From the IMG/VR virus record IMGVR_UViG_3300031753_000019, positions 1 to 41,894 of that record: DNA of 41,894 nt; one strand, given 5' to 3'. Position numbers and translations under genes: made by a program. The DNA is from a virus. How positions within the stretch are numbered: position 1 is the stretch's first letter; the number at the start of each line of letters is the position of its first letter. Of this stretch, positions 3,222-37,515 are shown piece by piece. The notes beneath the pieces are model-generated. The model was given only the letters and a program-made list of their open reading frames with translations, searched no databases and was not told the origin of the DNA.

Positions 3222-4001
3222 ATGAATTGGCGATCATTTTCTTCTGGCATATTAGGCGGAATATTCGCTTTCGCCACTTTGACATTCCCGATCATGCGGG
3301 CGCAATCCCCTTGGACCTCTTCGGTGACTCCTCCGGGTGGACTCACATTGATTATCAGCGGTTCATGTCCGGCAGGTACAGTCGAAGTGACATCGCTCAA
3401 TGGAGCGTTTCCTTATGGCACTCTTGCCGCGAATGGGGATGTCGGGACGACAGGCGGATCGAACACGATCACGCCGGCCGGGACAAATGGGACTGTTTCT
3501 TTTACCCCTGTCGGAACTGTAGCAGCACCGACCTTTACGGGGTCATCCGGTACTGTCCCGGCAGAAACGATTTCATGGCCTGCGGGTGTGCCAACGTTCG
3601 CTGGTAATGCGCTCGCTACTCACACACACACCGTCACACCAACGGGAACAAATGGAACAGCAACTGTGGCGACCACTTCTGGCAGTTTGGCCGGCACGAG
3701 TAGCGGCGCATTCTCGAAGGTGGGCGGATCATCGCCAGGTAGTTCATTCACCGTGCCAGCTGAGACATTCACCGGAACGTCGGATACCACAAGCGCCGTA
3801 AGTGCAGGCACACCGGCAGGAACAATCGCATGGCCCGCTGGCGTTCCCACAAATGGCACGGCCAGCTTCACCCCTTCGGGAACGAATTCAGCTCCGGCAT
3901 TTACTGGCACCGGAGGCACAATACCGGCAGAGACATGGACAGGTACGCAATTCGATAATCGGAGCGCCTTCGTGAAAGTGATTTTCTGCCAAAAGACCTG
4001 A
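3222..4001 (+). CDS. Repeat-rich tail collar/fibre-type protein with signal peptide
   Basis: 259 residues. Residues 1-28 form a signal peptide (hydrophobic ILGGIFAFATLTF, cleavage near MRAQS). The body is built of imperfect repeats: GTNGT, PAET (about four copies), FTGxxGT and two copies of WPAGVPT around residues 118 and 207. The end, FDNRSAFVKVIFCQK, is the ending commonly seen in phage tail-collar proteins (NRPAFVKVIFC type), which supports a virion role. It starts 11 bases after the previous stop. No enzyme motif was seen. The short repeats suggest recombination-driven length variation, as expected of a host-range determinant. Confidence 0.7.
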   Translation: MNWRSFSSGILGGIFAFATLTFPIMRAQSPWTSSVTPPGGLTLIISGSCPAGTVEVTSLNGAFPYGTLAANGDVGTTGGSNTITPAGTNGTVSFTPVGTVAAPTFTGSSGTVPAETISWPAGVPTFAGNALATHTHTVTPTGTNGTATVATTSGSLAGTSSGAFSKVGGSSPGSSFTVPAETFTGTSDTTSAVSAGTPAGTIAWPAGVPTNGTASFTPSGTNSAPAFTGTGGTIPAETWTGTQFDNRSAFVKVIFCQKT

Positions 4002-4003
4002 CT

Positions 4004-7000
4004 ATGAGCAAAAAATTATGGCTGCTCTTTGGATTCATAATCTGGTTTCTCATCGGCTGCCCGAAAATAGCGGCTCAGACCACGGTAAACGGCAATGTTA
4101 CCGACGCAGGCAGTCAAGCATGGTTCGGAGGCACTTGGAGCGTTAAGCTGATCCCTCTTCCCGGAAATCCTACTCCATCGCAATATTTCATTGGTGGAAG
4201 TTCTACGGTTGTTCCGAATCAAAGCGTCAGCGGAAATCTCGATGCGAGCGCAAATTTCACTCAGGTTCTCTATCCGAACACGCAGATCAGCCCCGAAAAG
4301 TCCACTTGGCAATTCATTGTCTGCCCACAAGCCACAGCAGCATGCTTTACTCAGAATATCCAGATTCCTCCTAGCCCGGTTTTCGCTCTGAACTTCGTCC
4401 CGCCCGCCATTTCGGTTGATATGAGTAACACAATCGGACCTCGCTGGGCTGCCTATGCAGACGCCGAAGCTGCAAATGCCAAACCGGGTCAATACTATTG
4501 GAATGTGACGAACAATGATGCTCGAATCTGCCAAACATCACCCTGTTCTGGAGCGAATTGGGTCAATTTTGGAGGTGCGGCTAGCAACCCATGCGTCACA
4601 ACAGCGAATGCCGTTCAATATAATCAATCCAATTCTTTCGGATGCGCTCAAGGGATAACGACACCTGATGGAAACAGTCTGACAATCAAAGGTCCGGACC
4701 CTTACGTTGATGTCAATGCTACTGGTGCCCGCGCCGTGGCAGCTAGTTTCGGGACGACCGCTTCATGCTCTGGAACGACTTCTATTTCGGTTGCGTCGGC
4801 GACAGGATTCGTAAAAGGCGATGGCATTGTGGTGTATGGCTGCGGAGCAAGCGAAACAATGTCTACCCCGAGCGCACCAACCGTGACGCCGGGAGTGACG
4901 AATACCCTGACCGTGCCGGATGCGGTACTTACGACGGACACGTCAGGATCAACGATATACCTTTACAAGATCGTGAGTCGTGATAAATTCGGGGGACTGA
5001 CGCTGCCGAGCAATGCGACGACGATCACGAATGGGCCCGCGACGCTTGGCGAAAATCAGTTGACGGTCAGTACGCTGTCACTATCCGGAAACACACTGAC
5101 CGTCGTGATGAGTGCCACAGAAGTACTAAAAGCTGGGGAACTCATTCATATCATTGGAACAACTAATGAAGTCTTTCACCTCTGGGCTACTATCACATCC
5201 ATTACCAACGGTACAACCTTCGTCATCAACAATTTCCCTATCTACTCCGCAGGGGGAATTAGCGCCACCGGTGGAACGCTCACCTACTACACCGGGAATC
5301 AGTTAACGTGGACGAATAGTGGTACGACGCCCTGGCAAACGATAGTGTGCGCTTCTCGTCCAGCCGACTCAGGAGCGTATCATGTAATTGGGTTAACGTG
5401 GCCCGTGAACACTGCTACGGCGTACGGTTCCAATACAACATTTACGGACTGGGGTGCAACCCTTACATCAAAACCACGATTGCCTTCGTATATCGCCGAT
5501 TCCATTTGCACGGCTGTTTCTGCGACAAACGATTACCTCTCGACAACGATCACGAATATATCCGGAAATACATTTACCCTTGCAAATACAGCTTCTCAAA
5601 CAGCTTCTGGACAGACAGCCCTTCAAGACTCTGCGCCTGGAATTACAGCAGCTTTCACGTATGCGGCGGTTGCAAATATAAGTCCTGTTCTAATCTCCGC
5701 ACCACCAGGATCAGGCATCTATTTCATTAATTCATTCCTCGACTTATCGTCATTCTCCAATATCCCCTTACGCCAAGAAGGTTCCATTCAACTTGATGAA
5801 ACCATGATCCCGCCCAGCCGATGGACTGGCATAACGGCGGGACACACTTCATCACCGAGCAATTATGGCTTGAGCGTGGTAAATGTGGGGGTCAACGGGG
5901 CATGGCCTGCCATCTATACGAACAATAACACACCGCTCATGGAGAACCTCAGTTTCCAGAACGCAGGAAATCAAGCGTTGCTTGTTTTCCTCGACGGTGG
6001 TGGTGGTCAAATTCAGGGCGGAATTCTAGATAAACTAGTGCTTGTAACTGGGAGTTCTCCCAATGATTATACGGGGATGGGTCTCGTCATTCGTGCCGCT
6101 CCGTTCTTCCAGTCCATTAAAAATATAGTCTTTTTGAACGGTCCAGGTAATGGTGGTGGAAACGCAGATACCACTTGGACGCCTGAGTTGTATTTCGCTC
6201 GGAATAACAGCGGAAGCGGAGTATTGGGTGTCAATTATGACAAACTCGATAACCTTCAATTCAACGGACGAACATTCTATGCTGTTGATGGTGGTCCGTA
6301 CGAGATTCATAATGTTTATACCCAAGGAAACATTCTTCCCACCGTGGTTTTACAGGAGGTAACAGGAAATAGCGTTCCGACAGTGACATTGACGGGCATC
6401 CTAACAAATGATACTTCCGGGGAAGCGATCTTAGCTCTACTTGGCGGGGCAAGTGGCTCCGTTCATTTAGAAGGCGTATCTGGTTTGAGTGCGGCAGGTG
6501 GGGGCGCTGGTGTTCCTCCGCAACTAACAGGCAATGCCCCGCGTTCAATTTTCTATCTCAACGATACGGGAAGCCTCGTGGGACCAGGGGCCGGAGCGGG
6601 ACAAAGTAATTCCACTCCTATAGACGCGTTGCGTAATTCGATTCAATTCGACTCACAGAGTTACTATGCGAACGACTATCAAGATACAACGGTCTTTAAC
6701 TCTAATCGCGCCATTCAGCAGAACGCTGGTCCTGTTTCCAGTAACAGTGGGATGTTCGTACCTCTCGCAACACCGGTCCTCTCTGTGCCAACGCCGAGTG
6801 CGGGAGGATCAATTCCAGATGGCGCACACATCTGGTGTGTAAACGCAGTCGGGTTTAGCGGCGGTTGGAGCAAATCTTCATGCCAGTCGTTTACCACAGT
6901 CGGAACGAATCAAACACTTGCATTCAGTTGGACTGCCGTATCAGGTGCCGCATCCTATGTCCTCTCCAAGGATCAGACGCAATGCCTTCCTGATGCGAAT

Positions 7001-12929: not shown

Positions 12930-13262
12930 TCAGAAGTGCATTGGCTGACCGTGTCCATCGAGCAAAATATGATGTTTCCAGCAGCGCACTGAAACCTTGT
13001 CAATCTCGTCCGACCCTTCCGACTTGCTCATGGGCGGAAAGTGCGACATCTGGAGCGGACCATGACAGTCGCTCTTGGCTCGGTCCACGCAACCTTTATC
13101 GCGCTCGAAGACTCGGTGTCGTAGCCGTTTCTTGTCCTCTCCAAACAGAACGATACGATAGCTGCCATCCATGCGGCGCAGCATAACCGAGCGGCGATCC
13201 GTGAATCGTCCATCTCCTCGGGCTTCCGCTGTGGCTGTTCGATCAAGGCTGCCGAACCTCAA
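12930..13262 (-). CDS. HNH-type nuclease
   Basis: About 110 residues if it starts at the TTG at 13260-13262, which overlaps the upstream TGA; an internal ATG at 13184 is an alternative. The C-terminal half shows an HNH/McrA-like metal fold: RHRVFERDKGCVD, DCHGPLQMSHF and VRCWKHHILLDGHG, with the Cys pairs as structural ligands and His residues as catalytic candidates. Phage HNH proteins of this size may nick DNA or assist packaging, but here it sits among recombination genes. The exact start is uncertain. Confidence 0.7.
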   Translation of the reverse strand: MRFGSLDRTATAEARGDGRFTDRRSVMLRRMDGSYRIVLFGEDKKRLRHRVFERDKGCVDRAKSDCHGPLQMSHFPPMSKSEGSDEIDKVSVRCWKHHILLDGHGQPMHF

Positions 13263-13453
13263 ACGCTTTGCTGCTGAATCTTGACCTTGCCGCATCGAAG
13301 ACATTCCTGGCGCTGCCGGATTCTGTGCCATGCGCCGACTTCTTCATCGTAAAAAGTTACCCATTTCGACCAGTCATGGAACAGCCAGCAATTGCCCCGA
13401 GGCGTCTCTTCCGAGATTTTCAGGCCCTTTTCCGAAACGATTAGCTCGCTCAT
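13259..13453 (-). CDS. Small zinc-ribbon-like protein
   Basis: 64 residues. C22, then FHDWSKW and CLRCGK near the C-terminus fit a widespread small phage zinc ribbon (C...FHxWxxW...CxxCG). ATG overlaps the upstream TGA. Such proteins are often thought to bind nucleic acid or RNA polymerase, but no target is known here. Confidence 0.65.
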   Translation of the reverse strand: MSELIVSEKGLKISEETPRGNCWLFHDWSKWVTFYDEEVGAWHRIRQRQECLRCGKVKIQQQSV

Positions 13454-13770
13454 GGAGTCGCTGCCTTCGCCCTCCCGTTCGACAGCCGTTCAAACACCTT
13501 GTCGAATTCGGGATTCACCGTAAGCCAAATCTCTTCCCGCCGAAACTCCCGCAACTCGGCAGTCAGTTGATCGACTCGACTAAGCGCGTCCCGAAGCTCG
13601 GCTTCCTTGAGGATAGTCTGCGCTCGAATCTGTTCAACGAGGGGACGCCGGATCGGAACCGATTGACTCTGCATGGCGGCCATAGCTTGCGGGTTATCTT
13701 CGATGCGGCTCGTGAGCGCCTGGAATTTCGACGCTGCTTCCTGGCCCTGCTTGCGATTGAGTATGTTCAT
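13450..13770 (-). CDS. Helical hypothetical protein
   Basis: 106 residues, rich in Glu, Gln, Arg and Ala with heptad-like spacing (QIRAQTILKEAELRDALSRV, QLTAELREFRREE), so probably coiled coil. No cysteines. Overlaps both neighbours through ATGA junctions. Function not recognised. Confidence 0.6.
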   Translation of the reverse strand: MNILNRKQGQEAASKFQALTSRIEDNPQAMAAMQSQSVPIRRPLVEQIRAQTILKEAELRDALSRVDQLTAELREFRREEIWLTVNPEFDKVFERLSNGRAKAATP

Positions 13771-26502: not shown

Positions 26503-26687
26503 ATCCGAATCGAATGGAATTCAGCATCGGTGACATCGTGACCTTTGGCAACGATCCGATGAAATGGAAGTGTTCGGCTGTCGAAGGTCCTCCCGGCAAG
26601 GAAAAATGGACTTTCATGCCGCTTCCCGAAAAGGAAATACAGCACGTCAACGATGTTGTTTCTTCGGCGAGTCGATGCTCTACCTGA
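26499..26687 (+). CDS. Small hypothetical protein after terL
   Basis: 62 residues from the ATG that overlaps the terL stop (ATGA). Beta-like start (MEFSIGDIVTFGNDPMKWKC) followed by PPGKEKWTFMPLPEKEI, a pattern like small SH3-type phage proteins. Overlaps the phosphatase gene by 13 bases. Not recognised. Confidence 0.55.
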   Translation: MNPNRMEFSIGDIVTFGNDPMKWKCSAVEGPPGKEKWTFMPLPEKEIQHVNDVVSSASRCST

Positions 26688-27271
26688 TCCGCCATGAAGA
26701 AACACCGCTCAACGCCGACAATCGCATCCGAGGCACAGATGATCCGCCGCTCAGCGCCAAGGGTCGAAGTCAGGCAATGGCGACAGGCAGGATGCTGAGA
26801 GGCAAGTTTGACCGGATCGTTGCCGACAGTTCGAGGCGTACACAGGAGACAGCCAAGCTCGTTGCGCCGATGCACCAGATAGAGACTGATCCAAAGCTCG
26901 CCACGCTGAATGTTGGCGAGTACAGCGGCAAGAAAGCAACACCGGAACGGGAGAAGGAATTCGATTCGAAGTACATCGACCATCCTGAAAAGAAGATACC
27001 GGGCGGCGAATCGGTGAATGAATGGCTGCCGAAGTGGAAGGACACGTACCAGAAGTATCTCGGGGAGTCGCAGCACCAGAACATAGCCTTGGTGACGCAT
27101 GGCCGACCTGTATCGGCTGCTGTGCATGGCTTTACAACTGATTCTCTCAAAGAGAAGAATGTGCCAAAGCTCGGATGTTGCGTGTTCCAGGTAGGAAATG
27201 ACGGCGTTCCGAGGAAGATGAACGTCGGAAGCGGGCCGAAGATGAACCTGTCGGCGCTAGCGAGGGCGTAA
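26675..27271 (+). CDS. Histidine phosphatase (phosphoglycerate mutase-like)
   Basis: 198 residues. All core residues of the histidine phosphatase fold are visible: LIRHEET (catalytic His and first Arg), SSRRTQET (second Arg), GEYSG with a Glu, and VTHGRPVSA (second His). Members remove phosphate from small molecules or proteins. A copy between terminase and portal genes is an auxiliary metabolic or host-modifying gene. The start at the ATG at 26675 gives the standard MLYLIRHEE beginning. Substrate cannot be told from sequence. Confidence 0.85.
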   Translation: MLYLIRHEETPLNADNRIRGTDDPPLSAKGRSQAMATGRMLRGKFDRIVADSSRRTQETAKLVAPMHQIETDPKLATLNVGEYSGKKATPEREKEFDSKYIDHPEKKIPGGESVNEWLPKWKDTYQKYLGESQHQNIALVTHGRPVSAAVHGFTTDSLKEKNVPKLGCCVFQVGNDGVPRKMNVGSGPKMNLSALARA

Positions 27272-27450
27272 TGGATTGGCAATGGAGCTATAAATATTCT
27301 GGGCACCCGCTCTATTTTGGGATTTGTTCAAACCATGAAGAGGGCACGATGTACCTCTACAATCGGTACATCACATTGGGATTCCGATGGCCGATTTCAG
27401 TTCGCATAGAACGGCCACGAAAGAAGGTTATTCATGCCCGCGTTTCTTGA
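27271..27450 (+). CDS. Small hypothetical protein
   Basis: 59 residues starting in TAATG coupling with the phosphatase. Rich in aromatic residues (WQWSYKYSGHPLYFGI) and basic at the end (RIERPRKKVIHARVS). The end overlaps the next gene by 17 bases. No known family. Confidence 0.5.
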   Translation: MDWQWSYKYSGHPLYFGICSNHEEGTMYLYNRYITLGFRWPISVRIERPRKKVIHARVS

Positions 27451-27631
27451 AAAGAAGCTCAAGTCCGAAGCGTTGAAGAAAGGCTTCACCGGGCGCAAAG
27501 CGGCTCGCTACGTCTACGGCGCGATGAATAACATGGGCGCGATGCGCGGATCGAAGGAAACCGCCAAGGGCCGGTCGATGCAGAAGAAGCACACCATGAA
27601 GCTCAGTCAACTAGCAAGGGCACATGCCTAG
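27434..27631 (+). CDS. Small basic conserved-type phage protein
   Basis: 65 residues, very basic (FLEKKLKSEALKKGFTGRKA; GRSMQKKHTMKLSQLARAHA), with ARYVYGAMNNMGAMRGSK. I recognise the style from many phages between terL and portal (KxxKxEAxKKGFTGxKAxxYVYGxMN), but no function is known. Perhaps a DNA- or scaffold-interacting protein. Confidence 0.65.
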   Translation: MPAFLEKKLKSEALKKGFTGRKAARYVYGAMNNMGAMRGSKETAKGRSMQKKHTMKLSQLARAHA

Positions 27632-27809
27632 ACATCCTCGAATCATGGATCGCGTTCGACTGATTCAGTCTATGCCTGACGAACATTTAAGGAAGTTCGA
27701 ACAGTTCTTAGACGCCGAGGCGTCGAACAGTGACGGTCCCCGATGGTACGGATTTCACGTTGCTTGGCATCAGCGCGAAGTAAAGCGGGAATGGGAGCGT
27801 CGGAAGTGA
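27624..27809 (+). CDS. Small hypothetical protein
   Basis: 61 residues (MPRHPRIMDRVRLIQSMPDE start), helical and charged, ending in HQREVKREWERRK. Its TGA overlaps the GTG of the GroES-like gene, so the two are coupled. Not recognised. Confidence 0.5.
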   Translation: MPRHPRIMDRVRLIQSMPDEHLRKFEQFLDAEASNSDGPRWYGFHVAWHQREVKREWERRK

Positions 27810-28165
27810 ACATCGAGCCTCGCAACGATTTGGTCGTCATCCAGCGCATTGACGATCCGCTCGAATCGAAGAGCGCAGGCGGCATCATCATTCCGCAGGT
27901 TGCCCAGGAGAAGGGCATCAAGGGTCGAGTGTTGGCGGTTGGGCCTGGGAAATGGGTCGAAGGTGTGAATGGCGGTCTCGTTCGGAAGCCCTTGGATGTG
28001 AAAGTCGGAGATTTGGTGCTGTTCAACTCAAAATGGTCGGAACTAGCAGGCAGTCATTATGCGGAGGACACGCCGATTCAGTTCGAGCGCGTGATTCATC
28101 TCGTCATGGAAGCGGATATCTTCTGTAAACTGAATGCCCCAAACCGAGATACAAAGAGCAACTGA
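27806..28165 (+). CDS. groES: GroES-family co-chaperonin
   Basis: 119 residues from the GTG at 27806. The Cpn10 pattern is clear: NIEPRNDLVVIQRIDDP, then the mobile-loop region KSAGGIIIPQVAQEKGIKGR, VLAVGPGKW, VGDLVLFNSKW and an end strand (IHLVMEADIF). The mobile loop with GGIIIP is what docks onto GroEL. Phage versions (as T4 gp31) adapt host GroEL to fold large capsid proteins, fitting its place just before portal and coat. The C-terminus is extended by about 12 residues and overlaps the portal start. Confidence 0.85.
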   Translation: MNIEPRNDLVVIQRIDDPLESKSAGGIIIPQVAQEKGIKGRVLAVGPGKWVEGVNGGLVRKPLDVKVGDLVLFNSKWSELAGSHYAEDTPIQFERVIHLVMEADIFCKLNAPNRDTKSN

Positions 28166-31304: not shown

Positions 31305-32522
31305 TTGAGTAATACGCTTCTAACCATCGGGATGATTACCCGTGAAACTCTACGTGTTCTCGAAAACGAGCTTACATTCACGCGGCAGATCAACCGAAGT
31401 TACGATTCGCAGTTCGCCAAGGCGGGAGCAAAGATCGGCAACGTGCTCAACGTGCGCTTGCCGGTGCGCTTCAGCTATTCGCAGGGCCAAGGTCTGATCC
31501 TTCAGGATTTGACCGAAAGCTCGGTGCCGGTGGTGCTGAACATCCAGTACCAGCGGTCCTTCGCCATTACTTCATCGGACCTTGCCCTTTCGGTGGACGA
31601 TTTCCGAAAGCGGTTCATCGACAAGGCCATGAAGAGCATGGCAAACCAGATCGACGGAGACGGTCTCTTGCTGTACAAGACCGTGAACAACGAAGTCGGC
31701 ACTCCGGGCACGGTTCCGAACACGGTGCAGACGTATCTCGATGCGGGCACGCTGCTTTCAAACGAAGCATGTCCCATCGAAGATCGCTGCCTCGTCATTT
31801 CTCCGGCGATGAATGGAACTATCGTCGGCGCATTGACCGGTCTCTTCAATCCTCAGCGCACCATTTCGAAGCAGTACACCAAGGGAATGATGTCCGAGGA
31901 TACGGTCGGCTACGACTGGTACATGGACCAGAACTGTGCGCTCCATACAGTCGGGCTACAGGGCGGCACACCAATCACGAATGGAGTTAACCAAGTCGGC
32001 GGAAGCATAATTTCCGATGGCTGGTCGAACTCTACGCAAGTGCTCAATCGCGGCGACATCATTCAGGTTGCCGGAGTGTTTGCCGTTAACCCGCAAAACT
32101 TGCAGTCGTTCAACACTCTGGCAAACTTCGTGGTCACTGCCGACACGACCTCGGATGGTTCGGGCAATGCAACAATCCCGGTTCAGATCAACGGGGCGAA
32201 CATCATCGCAACTGGCCCGTACCAGAACGTCACAGCGGCATTGCCTGATGATACGGCAATCACCGTCAACGGCGCTGCTTCGACCAAGACACAGCGCGGT
32301 CTTGCCTTCCATCCCGATGCGTTCACCTTCGCCTCTGCCGACCTGCCGCTTTATGGCGGTCTCGACATGGCGGATCGCATTGCCGACGATCAAGACCTCA
32401 AGATGTCGATGCGCGTCATTCGGGACTATGACATCAACCTGGACCGAGCACCGCTCCGCATGGACTTGCTCGGTGGCTGGGCCACGCTTTATCCGCAGTT
32501 GGCCTGCCGGATTGCGAGCTGA
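31305..32522 (+). CDS. P22-like major coat protein
   Basis: 405 residues from a TTG with AAGGAGGA upstream (P22 gp5 has 430). The N-terminal arm LLTIGMITRETLRVL and ELTFTRQINRSYD, then GAKIGNVLNVRLPVRF, is typical of the gp5 family, as is the ending DLLGGWATLYPQLACRI. The middle carries inserted loops (TADTTSDGSGNATIPVQI). The protein forms the HK97-fold icosahedral shell. Its N-terminal arm is copied in the minus-strand Tat-signal gene at 35213-35524. Confidence 0.92.
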   Translation: MSNTLLTIGMITRETLRVLENELTFTRQINRSYDSQFAKAGAKIGNVLNVRLPVRFSYSQGQGLILQDLTESSVPVVLNIQYQRSFAITSSDLALSVDDFRKRFIDKAMKSMANQIDGDGLLLYKTVNNEVGTPGTVPNTVQTYLDAGTLLSNEACPIEDRCLVISPAMNGTIVGALTGLFNPQRTISKQYTKGMMSEDTVGYDWYMDQNCALHTVGLQGGTPITNGVNQVGGSIISDGWSNSTQVLNRGDIIQVAGVFAVNPQNLQSFNTLANFVVTADTTSDGSGNATIPVQINGANIIATGPYQNVTAALPDDTAITVNGAASTKTQRGLAFHPDAFTFASADLPLYGGLDMADRIADDQDLKMSMRVIRDYDINLDRAPLRMDLLGGWATLYPQLACRIAS

Positions 32523-34279: not shown

Positions 34280-34488
34280 TGAACACTGAGGGCAATACAT
34301 ACCCTCGCGTGAAATATCACATACGCGGCGGCGGGACGATTCTTGTTGCCGATGCCGCGCAGGAGAAGGCTTTGGGGTCGGACTGGGTGGACCACAAGGC
34401 GCTGTCGCCTAACCCCCCACGACCAGCGGCCCCAGAGACACCGAAGAAGCGCGGAAGGCCGCCTCGGGTGACAGATGCGCGCACTTGA
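34279..34488 (+). CDS. Small basic protein, common phage type
   Basis: 69 residues, TAATG-coupled to the previous gene. Contains YPRVKYHIRGGG and ends with PKKRGRPPRV, an AT-hook-like basic tail seen in many small phage proteins next to virion genes. DNA contact is possible. Overlaps the gp4-like gene by 14 bases. Confidence 0.55.
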   Translation: MNTEGNTYPRVKYHIRGGGTILVADAAQEKALGSDWVDHKALSPNPPRPAAPETPKKRGRPPRVTDART

Positions 34489-35224
34489 TCTCATCTCCAG
34501 CTCGATGCGATTGATCGGCAGCTTAGCGTCCGGGGAAGTTCCGACTAGTGCGGAAGCCTCGGATGCTCTGACTGTTTTGAACCAGATGCTCGATAGTTGG
34601 GCGGCGGATCGACTGATCGTTTTCACGATCACGATTCAGGAATTCGCCCTAACGCCTAGTCAGCAAGTATATACCTATGGAGTCGGAGGAAATTTCAACG
34701 CTCCAAGACCTGCTCGAATTGACCGGGCGAGTATTGTTTCGCTCACGAATCCATCGCAGCCGCTTGAACTCCCGATTGACTACTACACGAACTGGGATTG
34801 GCAGCAGGTTCCGGTCAAAAACATTCAAACGACGCTTCCGCAAGCGGTTTATGACGATCAGGGCTATCCGCTTCGGAATTTGAGCTTCTGGCCGATCCCG
34901 ACCGTCGTGGTAAACACTCGGCTTTACGTTTGGACGGCGCTTTCATCGTTTGCTAGCCTCACGACCGACAACAGTTACCCTCCGGGGTACATCGAGGCAT
35001 TGCGGTACAACCTTGCAGTTCGGCTCATGGCCGAAATGCCTGGCGGATTCGATCCGGTCATGGCGCAAACAACGGCTCCGTTGGCTATTGAATCGCTCGC
35101 TCGGGTGAAGTCGATGAATTTGCCCCTGATCGAAGCATTCTGCGATGCGGCGCTCAATGACAAGAGTGTCCGTTACAATTACTATTCAGATACTCCTGTT
35201 GGCGGTCAAGGATCACGATGGTAA
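34475..35224 (+). CDS. gp4-like tail accessory factor (head completion)
   Basis: 249 residues. Similar in layout to the P22 gp4 family: RALDLISSSMRLIGSLASGE, EASDALTVLNQMLDSWAADR, TPSQQVYTYGVGG, then PPGYIEALRYNLAVRLMAE. Such proteins attach below the portal and close the head after packaging; P22 gp4 also has muramidase activity, but I cannot see a catalytic Glu here. It precedes the gp10-like gene, as in P22, with a minus-strand insert between. Confidence 0.85.
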   Translation: MRALDLISSSMRLIGSLASGEVPTSAEASDALTVLNQMLDSWAADRLIVFTITIQEFALTPSQQVYTYGVGGNFNAPRPARIDRASIVSLTNPSQPLELPIDYYTNWDWQQVPVKNIQTTLPQAVYDDQGYPLRNLSFWPIPTVVVNTRLYVWTALSSFASLTTDNSYPPGYIEALRYNLAVRLMAEMPGGFDPVMAQTTAPLAIESLARVKSMNLPLIEAFCDAALNDKSVRYNYYSDTPVGGQGSRW

Positions 35225-35524
35225 TGTAATGCCTGTCGGCCTACAAGGAAGGAGCGTTGCGATTTGTGGAGAATGCAAACTAAAGTCCTCGGGAAAATAT
35301 TTGGTGAACGTCAGTTCTTTTTGCAGAACTGCCAAAGCTTCCCAAGTAATCATTCCAATTGTGAGTAGTTTATTCCCGGTGATTGCTTCTGTTTCCGCGA
35401 TATTCGCAATGCGTATTTTTTGCGGGAAGGACCAGACTCTGTTGAATGGAATCACTTCTTCAACGATATTTGCGCTAACAAGAGCGCCTAGGCCGAATAG
35501 GAATCCCCGTCTTGAGACTTCCAT
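35213..35524 (-). CDS. Tat-signal protein carrying a copy of the coat N-terminal arm
   Basis: 103 residues on the strand opposite to all neighbours. Residues 4-9 are SRRGFL, the twin-arginine motif, followed by a hydrophobic stretch (FLFGLGALVSANIV). Residues about 51-76 match coat residues 3-28: NKLLTIGMIT...ELTFTK against NTLLTIGMIT...ELTFTR, 18 of 26 identical by hand count, while codon third positions mostly differ, which implies selection on protein sequence. Residues 77-103 are unassigned. It fills a 317-base gap between tail genes and has its own promoter, like a moron gene. Function may be interference with capsid assembly or an envelope-targeted decoy. Confidence 0.75.
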   Translation of the reverse strand: MEVSRRGFLFGLGALVSANIVEEVIPFNRVWSFPQKIRIANIAETEAITGNKLLTIGMITWEALAVLQKELTFTKYFPEDFSLHSPQIATLLPCRPTGITLPS

Positions 35525-35533
35525 GATCGGGGC

Positions 35534-35542
35534 AGTATAGCA
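35534..35542 (-). promoter_or_regulatory. Extended -10 promoter for the Tat/coat-arm gene
   Basis: Minus strand TGC-TATACT (TATACT at 35534-35539 with TG one base upstream) is an extended -10 element; no good -35 is seen. Transcription should start near 35527, only about three bases before the ATG at 35524, and there is no Shine-Dalgarno sequence, so the mRNA is probably leaderless. It sits over the first codon of the rightward gp10-like gene. Confidence 0.55.
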
Positions 35543-37515
35543 TGCAACCCTTCGACCTCGTAGGCCCAAGTTATACAAGCCAATCACCCAACCTAGCAGA
35601 CCAACTTACTATCGGTTGGTATGTGGAATCCTCGGAAGGTGAGGGCCAAGCGCCAGCAGCCCTGTATCCGACTCCAGGAACGGCCGTTTTCTGCGATTTG
35701 ACCGACACGCCGATTCGTGGCGAAATCACGGTCAATGACCGAACTTTCGTTGCTGCCGGTGCTCATTTCTACGAAGTGTTTTCGGATGGCACGTTCCATC
35801 TGTACGGAAACATCGTCAATGATGGAAATCTTGTGTCGATGGCCGGAGGCGCGACACAGCTTCTCGTTGCGAGCGGCGGCCAAGTCTATGTGTTCGACTT
35901 CTCGACCGGGCATATTCTTACCGCATCGCTTAATCAGGGCGGAAACAATGGCATTCTGACGAGTTCTCTCAATGTCGGCGGAACTGGCTATGCTGCCGGG
36001 GACACGTTCACAATTTCTGCGGGCGACATGAATGCTACCGGAGTGGTCGATACTGTCGGCGGCGGCGTCGTGACCGGCTATCACCTGACGAGCGTAGGAT
36101 CGAACTACTCGGTCACAACCGGAGCACCTACAACTCGTACGGGAGTGCAGCTGGGGGTAGGTGTCGGACTGACGATCAATGTACTCACTCTTGGCGGCGG
36201 CTATACGGTCAATGATACCGGTGAAGTACTCGGAACAACTCCTTCAGCTACTTACATCGTAACGACCATCGACGCAAGCGGGAACGTGACCGGATTCACG
36301 ATCACGAACGGCGGCTCTCAGTATTCTCCGTCCACAAATGTGATGACCGAGACGGCGGGAGCACAACCGGGGATTGGCGTCGGCTTTACCATCAACATTC
36401 TCACGGTCGGAACGACAAACACGTTCACCGCTCTTCCGAATGGCACTCTTCTCGGGCCAATTTCCTTTGTCGCCTATGTGGAAGGCTTTTTCATCGCGCT
36501 TCTGTCGAACTCGAATCAATTCCAATGGTCCGCGCCTCTCGATGCGACGACTTGGGACCCTATCGACACGAACAAGGTGTCGGTATTCGCCGGAAACGTG
36601 CTTTCGATGTTCGCGGATCACAATGAAATCTGGTTCTGGGGCGAGCGGCAGACGCAGCCTTATTCTCTGACCGGATCGGCAAACACATTCGACCCGATTC
36701 TCGGGGCTTTCATGGAAGCGGGAATTTTCGCGCCTCAAAGCCCGGTGCGCCTCGACAATTCCGTGTTCTGGCTTGGAGGAGATGAGCGAGGCGCGGCAAT
36801 CGTATGGCGGGCAAACGGCTATACGCCTCAGAGAGTTAGCAACCATGCTATCGAGTTTGCTTTCCAGGGCTATCTTGCGACGTACGGCTCAATCGGCGTT
36901 TCGAATGCAGTCGGCTATTCCTACCAAGATCAGGGGCATGGCTTTTACGTCTTGTACTTCCCATCCCCGAGCGCAACATGGGTCTATGACGTGGCGACTG
37001 GCATGTGGCACCAAAGAGGTTTCTGGAATGCCGGAATAGGCCAATTTCAGGCGCATCACAGCCAGTGCCATACCTTTAATTTCGGAAAGCACCTCGTCGG
37101 AGACTGGTCGAGCGGCAAAGTCTACAACATGTCGATCAACCTATACGATGATGCCGGGAATCCGATTCGCCGTGTACGTCGAACGCGGCATGCTTCTGCC
37201 GATCAGAGCTGGGTATTCCACAAGGTCCTGCAAATCTATGCCGAAACAGGTGTTGGTCCTACGCCTCCGCTCCTCGATGGAAGTGGTAATCCACGTGACC
37301 CAATGATTAATATACGTTGGAGTAATGATGGAGGCCACGTATGGAGTTCGGAGCAATCAGCCGGCATCGGACAAGTCGGTCAGTATGGCAAGCGGGTCAT
37401 GTTTCGGCGTCTCGGAAGGGCTAGGGCGCGAGTCTACGAGGTCAGCGGGTCCGATCCGGTGCCCTATCGACTGGTCGGAGCGTTTCTCGATGTAAGCGCG
37501 AGTGAGGGAGCCTAA
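35542..37515 (+). CDS. gp10-like tail hub / packaged-DNA stabilisation protein
   Basis: 657 residues. Beginning (LVGPSYTSQSPNLADQLTIG) and later blocks (FIALLSNSNQFQWSAPLDAT, EIWFWGERQTQPYSLTG, HSQCHTFNFGKHLVGDWSSG, RRVRRTRHASADQSWVFH) fit the P22 gp10 family, a beta-propeller-like hub that closes the portal channel. Residues about 136-291 are an inserted Gly-rich region of repeated units (GTGYAAGDTFTISAG, GGGYTVNDTG, NGGSQYSPS), about 150 residues longer than expected for the core. The insertion probably forms a surface-exposed beta lobe. Confidence 0.85.
   Translation: MQPFDLVGPSYTSQSPNLADQLTIGWYVESSEGEGQAPAALYPTPGTAVFCDLTDTPIRGEITVNDRTFVAAGAHFYEVFSDGTFHLYGNIVNDGNLVSMAGGATQLLVASGGQVYVFDFSTGHILTASLNQGGNNGILTSSLNVGGTGYAAGDTFTISAGDMNATGVVDTVGGGVVTGYHLTSVGSNYSVTTGAPTTRTGVQLGVGVGLTINVLTLGGGYTVNDTGEVLGTTPSATYIVTTIDASGNVTGFTITNGGSQYSPSTNVMTETAGAQPGIGVGFTINILTVGTTNTFTALPNGTLLGPISFVAYVEGFFIALLSNSNQFQWSAPLDATTWDPIDTNKVSVFAGNVLSMFADHNEIWFWGERQTQPYSLTGSANTFDPILGAFMEAGIFAPQSPVRLDNSVFWLGGDERGAAIVWRANGYTPQRVSNHAIEFAFQGYLATYGSIGVSNAVGYSYQDQGHGFYVLYFPSPSATWVYDVATGMWHQRGFWNAGIGQFQAHHSQCHTFNFGKHLVGDWSSGKVYNMSINLYDDAGNPIRRVRRTRHASADQSWVFHKVLQIYAETGVGPTPPLLDGSGNPRDPMINIRWSNDGGHVWSSEQSAGIGQVGQYGKRVMFRRLGRARARVYEVSGSDPVPYRLVGAFLDVSASEGA

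Follow-up and report, generated by a model that had tools for sequence, protein, structure and literature searches.

The stretch of DNA analysed here (the window) is the record of a P22-type phage of 41,894 bases, and it carries, antisense to the late operon, a short gene that we call P0001. The features at and around this gene are as follows:

35213–35524, minus strand: Tat-leader capsid-mimic gene P0001, 103 residues, stop codon included
35402–35524, minus strand: twin-arginine leader with the family motif IPFNRVWSFPQKI, residues 1–41 of P0001 (alignment with eight relatives; HMM)
35297–35374, minus strand: coat N-arm-like segment, residues 51–76 of P0001, identical to coat residues 3–28 at 18 of 26 positions
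31305–32522, plus strand: major capsid (coat) protein of P22 type (PF11651, phrog_283, fold), with its N-arm at 31311–31388
34475–35224, plus strand: head–tail adaptor homologue (phrog_12985), left neighbour of P0001, convergent
35542–37515, plus strand: head closure protein Hc3 (phrog_578), right neighbour of P0001, divergent
35225–35541, no strand: 317-nt insert lying exactly between the adaptor and Hc3 genes
35534–35542, minus strand: promoter-like site of extended −10 type, TGC-TATACT, which reaches into the Hc3 start codon

P0001 runs from an ATG at 35524–35522 to a stop codon at 35215–35213, and the protein is laid out as MEVSRRGFLFGLGALVSANIVEEVIPFNRVWSFPQKIRIANIAETEAITG-NKLLTIGMITWEALAVLQKELTFTKY-FPEDFSLHSPQIATLLPCRPTGITLPS. 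An earlier sequence-only reading had claimed a minus-strand frame of 103 residues that begins with SRRGFL and a hydrophobic stretch and then matches the coat N-arm at 18 of 26 residues with many synonymous differences; frame, N-terminus and identity are all as claimed, the nucleotide changes being mostly at third bases. The coat residues paired with the segment are NTLLTIGMITRETLRVLENELTFTRQ, and weaker coat similarity extends to residue 95 of P0001 (35240). P0001 scores 85 against its own coat in a Smith–Waterman alignment, compared with a mean of 29 and a maximum of 52 in 1000 shuffles; chance resemblance is ruled out by these shuffles, by control ORFs and by the comparison with other virion families given below. 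The description of the arm as taken from the phage's own coat holds as far as the lineage is concerned, but relatives' coats are closer: the best coat match of the segment is that of L004 (98, above the 85 of the own coat). Recent duplication of the own coat gene is out as the origin of P0001, as synonymous sites are saturated. The AlphaFold model of the window coat (pLDDT 79.6) matches the capsids of Sf6, P22 and CUS-3, and the window also encodes a portal (PF16510). P0001 itself gives no PF11651 match, containing the N-arm segment alone and no full-length HK97-fold coat; modelling the structure of P0001 by itself yielded nothing informative (pLDDT 36).

In the close relatives L003, L004, L005 and L007, whose coats are 81–86% identical to that of the window, the adaptor stop and the Hc3 start are separated by only 3–4 nt, and the whole records of L003–L005 contain no leader match anywhere. 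P0001 is thus an accessory gene in an otherwise conserved operon, and its proposed moron-like status is supported by this exact presence/absence insertion (317 nt vs. 3–4 nt). The gap it fills had been taken for the only large one in the late operon; it is large, but 27272–28133 is open as well. That second stretch, of ~860 nt, lies between a His-phosphatase ORF and the portal ORF, and the ORFs within it are doubtful. The histidine phosphatase superfamily gene (26564–27271; PF00300, E 6e-29), situated between terminase and portal, is also present in L007 (4114–4731). L007 additionally carries an antisense ORF resembling an HNH homing endonuclease (13129–13596, minus strand) in its late operon just before the adaptor, so antisense inserts seem to favour the late-operon stretch near the adaptor.

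The promoter-like hexamer of the window occupies the positions 15–10 nt ahead of the ATG, and the accompanying TG shares sequence with the start codon of Hc3. The extended −10 box proposed from the sequence is present; the leaderless mRNA proposed with it is better called near-leaderless, since RNA synthesis would be predicted to start at ~35527, ~3 nt before the ATG. The same arrangement recurs in the family: in 25 of 53 members a TANNNT box, often an extended −10 (TG-n-TA...T), precedes the start codon by exactly 12 nt (shuffle mean 0.7, maximum 5 in 500), and in 31 it comes within one nucleotide of that position. A promoter-like site so placed would yield leaderless or near-leaderless RNA.

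The leader has the consensus M-x-RR-[GNS]-F-[LM] ... A-I-P-[FL]-[GN]-R-V-W-S-F-P-x-x-I, in which RR, F, P, R, S, F and P are invariant in 14 members, and RR is present in all of A1. As in Tat signals, an arginine pair is combined with a moderately hydrophobic stretch at the N-terminus (SRRGFLFGLGAL in the window). TIGR01409 scores L073 at 21.9 against a cut-off of 16.7 and L078 at 16.5, just below it, and gives no match to P0001; PF10518 matches weakly (E up to 0.1) in 7 of 14 members, with P0001 below the cut-off at E 0.13. A Tat signal is a plausible identity for the family leader, whose median dN/dS is 0.27.

With full-length P0001 as query, neither IMG/VR nor 50,697 phage records yielded a homologue (coats or nothing returned), and the family surfaced only on searching with the leader motif. 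The post-leader motif RVWSFPx[KEQ]I occurs in ~35 IMG/VR contigs; an alignment search with the leader brought up 49 contigs of viral origin, plus a single Betaproteobacteria MAG contig from a set of 84,980 genome species; and a leader HMM found more than 60 ORFs in IMG/VR phages. Homologues with a conserved frame, which the sequence-only reading had called for, thus exist, all outside the cultured phage records. PF11651 is present in 22 of 34 carrier records searched, several of the remainder being short fragments. The Tat gene of the MAG contig is surrounded by P22-type late genes; a host gene picked up by phages is out as the source, given this setting and the single match in 84,980 genome species. 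P0001 matched no PHROG at E up to 1, and 14 family members gave no match to PADLOC-DB 2.0.0 at E up to 0.1; the window gene is absent from PHROGs, NCBIfam and PADLOC, and its relatives find nothing in PHROGs, NCBIfam, PADLOC and Pfam beyond Tat-signal models. In the open-licence literature we found no description of an export signal joined to capsid pieces. Tat-leader capsid mimics are apparently a widespread and undescribed phage gene family.

On contigs that hold both a Tat gene and a P22-type coat, the two are opposite in strand in 38 of 39 cases, and in most mapped contigs the Tat gene lies between adaptor and Hc3 or adjoins the adaptor, with a few after Hc3. The expectation that a Tat leader and a capsid segment would co-occur, antisense, in P22-like phages is thereby borne out; that they would always be antisense holds for these 38, but not for a second leader subfamily. 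This subfamily, WPFR[VI][FY]SFP, is found in 23 contigs, is mostly sense and lacks the −12 promoter. It includes L007, the exception among the 39, in which the Tat gene (3719–4126) is sense, directly follows terminase and encodes a C-terminal part (C-part) that resembles the C-terminus of the coat, not the N-arm. Some phages carry two Tat genes side by side (L045; and L077, with a C-terminal hairpin and an arm). A tyrosine integrase is present in 14 of 30 viral records checked, and by these counts many carriers look temperate; none was found in the window phage or its nearest relatives.

Comparison of the C-parts with reference sets for eleven late gene families identified the coat as their principal source: 26 of 57 distinct C-parts match it (z above 4.5), and each of the ten other virion gene families is matched by 0 or 1. 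In a control that used the same 12 coats for both groups, 18 of 57 C-parts vs. 2 of 300 ORFs from the same contigs match coat (p 5e-14), both matching controls being Arg-rich. About half of the C-parts have no recognisable source. Where a source is recognised, each leader carries one or two short head-protein segments, nearly always from the major capsid protein of the carrier's own type. The coat stretch kept is only ~25–55 residues, insufficient for an HK97 fold; examples are ITAESLRILKEKLVF (arm; L046), VGSTVRIRFPQRFLIRD (L062), WDDYEAAVKAERS...YLQPAARQL (L078), GDIISFASVNRVNPL (L069) and VRFIKAWDPERARMLCRLDVLFGF (L063). Two C-parts match other head parts, the adaptor (L049, z 7.1) and the portal (L045, z 5.4); weak own-genome matches of Hc3-like (L063, E 0.006) and adaptor-like (L060, E 0.003) type failed the family-wide test. 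Shared C-terminal tails such as TAAFPPDSSHTPS were not used as homology, because there the gene overlaps the 3′ end of the adaptor gene on the other strand.

In the numbering of the window coat, the P22-like C-parts correspond to ~1–63 (N-arm and base of the F/E-loop), 82–118 (start of the spine helix), 245–265 (a strand that corresponds to the P22 I-domain) and 366–402 (the C-terminal part with the P-domain hairpin), the segments being placed on P22 domains by homology with domain limits from PMC9965877. Coat residues 119–244 and 266–365 are almost free of C-part matches though about as conserved, and a detection bias towards conserved coat regions is not supported as the cause of the segment choice. 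The N-arm found in P0001 is thus just one of about five coat segments used, and other capsid types are used as well. The segments are mainly contact elements rather than A-domain core; a piece in L211, which has a WPFR leader, resembles the A-domain. Common descent may link segments of the same class, which leaves few events that are strictly independent.

The L045 gene (18312–18752 of its contig, minus strand) encodes a single Tat protein with a piece of coat spine helix followed by a portal-like piece. In L208 (7247–7558, minus strand) the C-part starts with RWVGIDWGYNDSAVYVYYVH, like a stretch of the terminase large subunit (E 0.001 against L193:5377–6861). The contig of L066 holds an ORF of 174 residues (L121:11396–11917, plus strand) with an unrelated N-terminus in place of a Tat leader, and this ORF ends in a coat C-terminal-like hairpin, AFRVIRAWDPVFGGYILRFDSVF.

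The match between segment and carrier extends beyond the P22 type. L073 has no P22 coat, and when its C-part is compared with the ORFs of that phage, it matches residues 28–71 of the major head protein encoded there (phrog_1357; E 5e-8). Within the WPFR subfamily, L199, L209 and L007 carry P22-coat pieces, while the pieces of other members (RIDLMDLKYWG, SSYPGRLS) match the major head protein of L194 (phrog_14242); the members with phrog_14242 pieces are L193, L194 and L208. In L050 the resemblance is weaker, to the phrog_371 head protein of that phage (E 0.038). The pattern recurs over at least three capsid families. P22-like C-parts fit the coat of their own phage better than random pairing predicts (p 0.0009), and yet, of 24, only 2 have that coat as their top match; it is the lineage that they resemble, and not a recent self-copy. 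The count of C-parts that exceed shuffles against any coat, 24 of 40, is slightly generous, as the shuffles used 12 coats and the observed best 36; in the comparison over eleven late gene families the two sets were equal.

Between segment and own coat, pS is 0.64–1.0 in most cases, that is, saturated, and pN is 0.15–0.49. Coat-invariant residues are kept at 73% (67/92) and variable sites at 32%, both values being inflated by alignments chosen on score. Comparisons of one Tat gene with another gave pS 0.79 and pN 0.13 over 28 codons (L075/L062) and dN/dS 0.21 over 62 codons (L049/L043): the ratio near 1 that would have marked a frame free of constraint is not what was found, and selection is purifying. 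Saturated synonymous sites together with the retention of invariant residues indicate that, where this can be measured, the mimicry is selected. In two members, sequence has also passed recently from the carrier's coat gene into the Tat gene, as 22 nt exact in L045 and 20/21 nt in L069, and compared with the coat of its phage the spine-helix segment of L045 shows dN exceeding dS. Recent transfers and constraint together suggest that the pieces have been acquired again and again, by capture or conversion, and have been kept thereafter.

We favour, as a possibility that we rate as clearly more doubtful than probable, that these proteins are membrane-targeted capsid-fragment baits that poison the head assembly of related phages. 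The sequence-only reading had proposed interference with competing capsids or a membrane-targeted decoy, and either function would be compatible with all the findings. The Tat system would bring the protein to the inner membrane, where the capsid segment would serve as bait by binding the usual partners of that piece of coat: scaffold, neighbouring coat subunits, portal or adaptor. In P22, residues of the coat N-arm and P-domain contact scaffold (PMC9965877). The partner would be removed from the assembly pool at the membrane or through Tat "hitchhiker" export, export of hitchhiking partners by Tat being described in PMC4273604, and the capsids of related superinfecting or co-infecting phages would fail. 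For antisense members, late transcription running head-on may silence the gene while the phage makes its own capsids and so prevent self-poisoning. Interference is favoured because the segments mostly touch neighbouring subunits or scaffold and because adaptor and portal pieces occur once each. The chief difficulties of this model are the sense WPFR subfamily and full export, which would remove the segment from its partners. Members of the former are mostly sense and lack the promoter, so late transcription cannot be the general means of silencing, and these phages would need another way to escape self-poisoning; and as full export would part the segment from coat and scaffold, the protein would have to act before or without full translocation. 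The window phage and its nearest relatives, in which no tyrosine integrase was found, and the C-parts of unrecognised source also tell against the model.

The main rival, unlikely when taken by itself and almost as likely as the bait, is a counter-defence decoy for capsid-sensing immunity: the capsid segment would occupy host capsid sensors without triggering them, and the Tat leader would park or export the complex. A decoy accounts for both subfamilies, as it would work equally in sense and antisense genes, and it is in keeping with turnover and re-capture and with lineage-matched fragments from several segments, which would be expected if hosts differ in their sensors. Known sensors do bind newly made major capsid protein, as in CapRel SJ46, for which escape mutations cluster in one short capsid region (PMC9712102). 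However, no sensor is known in the carrier hosts, a sensor-binding fragment might itself trigger the sensor, pieces derived from adaptor and portal would need further sensors, and the antisense position in 38 of 39 P22-like cases is left unexplained. We regard as improbable that the resemblance is a functionless by-product of a mobile promoter-plus-signal cassette that gathers late-gene pieces by illegitimate recombination. Near-identical leaders carrying different segments (L054 vs. L075), the recent nucleotide-level copies of the own coat in L045 (22 nt exact) and L069 (20/21 nt), and dN above dS in the L045 spine-helix segment all fit such a cassette; however, it would have to draw on the coat 26 times and on each of ten other late gene families 0–1 times, and it is already strained by the constraint data, namely saturated synonymous sites with coat-invariant residues kept at 73%, pS 0.79 with pN 0.13 for L075/L062 and dN/dS 0.21 for L049/L043.

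The use of head-protein contact elements that match the carrier's capsid type, and the sense L007 gene directly after terminase, would also suit a protein that aids the carrier in its own assembly: as a membrane anchor with a swapped coat arm, it would dock procapsids at the inner membrane or nucleate heads there. This is quite improbable for an accessory gene that is missing in relatives with 81–86% identical coats and that in P22-like phages stands antisense to the late operon, so that it is not co-expressed with coat. In the HK97 fold, N-arm and spine helix are largely buried in the finished capsid; most of the mimicked elements are of this kind, and capsids normally do not enter the periplasm. 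A periplasmic or lysogenic-conversion function, in which the coat likeness would serve extracytoplasmic contacts, such as those with incoming virions or with particles that have been released, is thus very improbable, even though the plausible Tat signal (one member exceeds the TIGR01409 cut-off) makes true export possible and exclusion proteins expressed from prophages exist, such as P22 SieA (PMC10883804).

Our overall reading, which we hold tentatively and at not far short of an even chance, joins baiting with elements of its main rival: a Tat cassette would be refitted repeatedly with lineage-matched capsid segments, and occasionally with portal or adaptor pieces, for a capsid-derived interference that baits rivals' assembly partners or host capsid sensors to the membrane, and that in P22-like phages would be off during the phage's own assembly by virtue of the antisense position.

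SieA is an integral membrane protein that acts on DNA delivery and is not known to carry a capsid segment. Like the P22 SieA-type exclusion proteins (PMC10883804), P0001 is a moron-like and, by prediction, membrane-targeted product of a P22-type phage. Tab, a Pseudomonas prophage protein, blocks virion assembly by acting on the tape measure protein and is silenced by anti-Tab (PMC10884400); it shares with the proposed baits the spoiling of others' virion assembly by an accessory phage protein and the need to avoid self-damage in the lytic cycle, whereas Tab concerns the tail, and P0001 is itself a head-protein fragment behind a Tat leader that would be silenced by its antisense layout. In Tha/Ith of Staphylococcus prophages, tail proteins are sensed by Tha, a HEPN RNase, whose inhibitor is encoded by an antisense partner, a layout that avoids autoimmunity (PMC11087260). 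There, too, an antisense layout ties an anti-phage gene to the life cycle and structural proteins are the recognised feature; unlike in Tha/Ith, the antisense gene here itself carries the structural-protein segment, which in P0001 comes from the PF11651 P22 coat family. Tab and Tha/Ith are the nearest mechanisms, and neither is in the same family as the Tat-leader mimics.

Capsid-derived restriction factors are familiar from animals, where Fv1 and endogenous retroviral Gag are host genes that come from retroviruses. As with these factors, a virus-derived capsid fragment would interfere with the capsids of related viruses; the Tat-leader mimics differ in that their genes belong to phages, encode a Tat leader and keep only very short segments. 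The recurrence over capsid families, together with selection for the resemblance, points to an unknown layer of conflict or control that acts on capsid proteins. If interference is the true function, the family would be a phage counterpart of capsid-derived restriction factors and would supply ready-made peptide inhibitors of head assembly; if the decoy function is true, each segment would mark a part of the capsid that is watched by host immunity.
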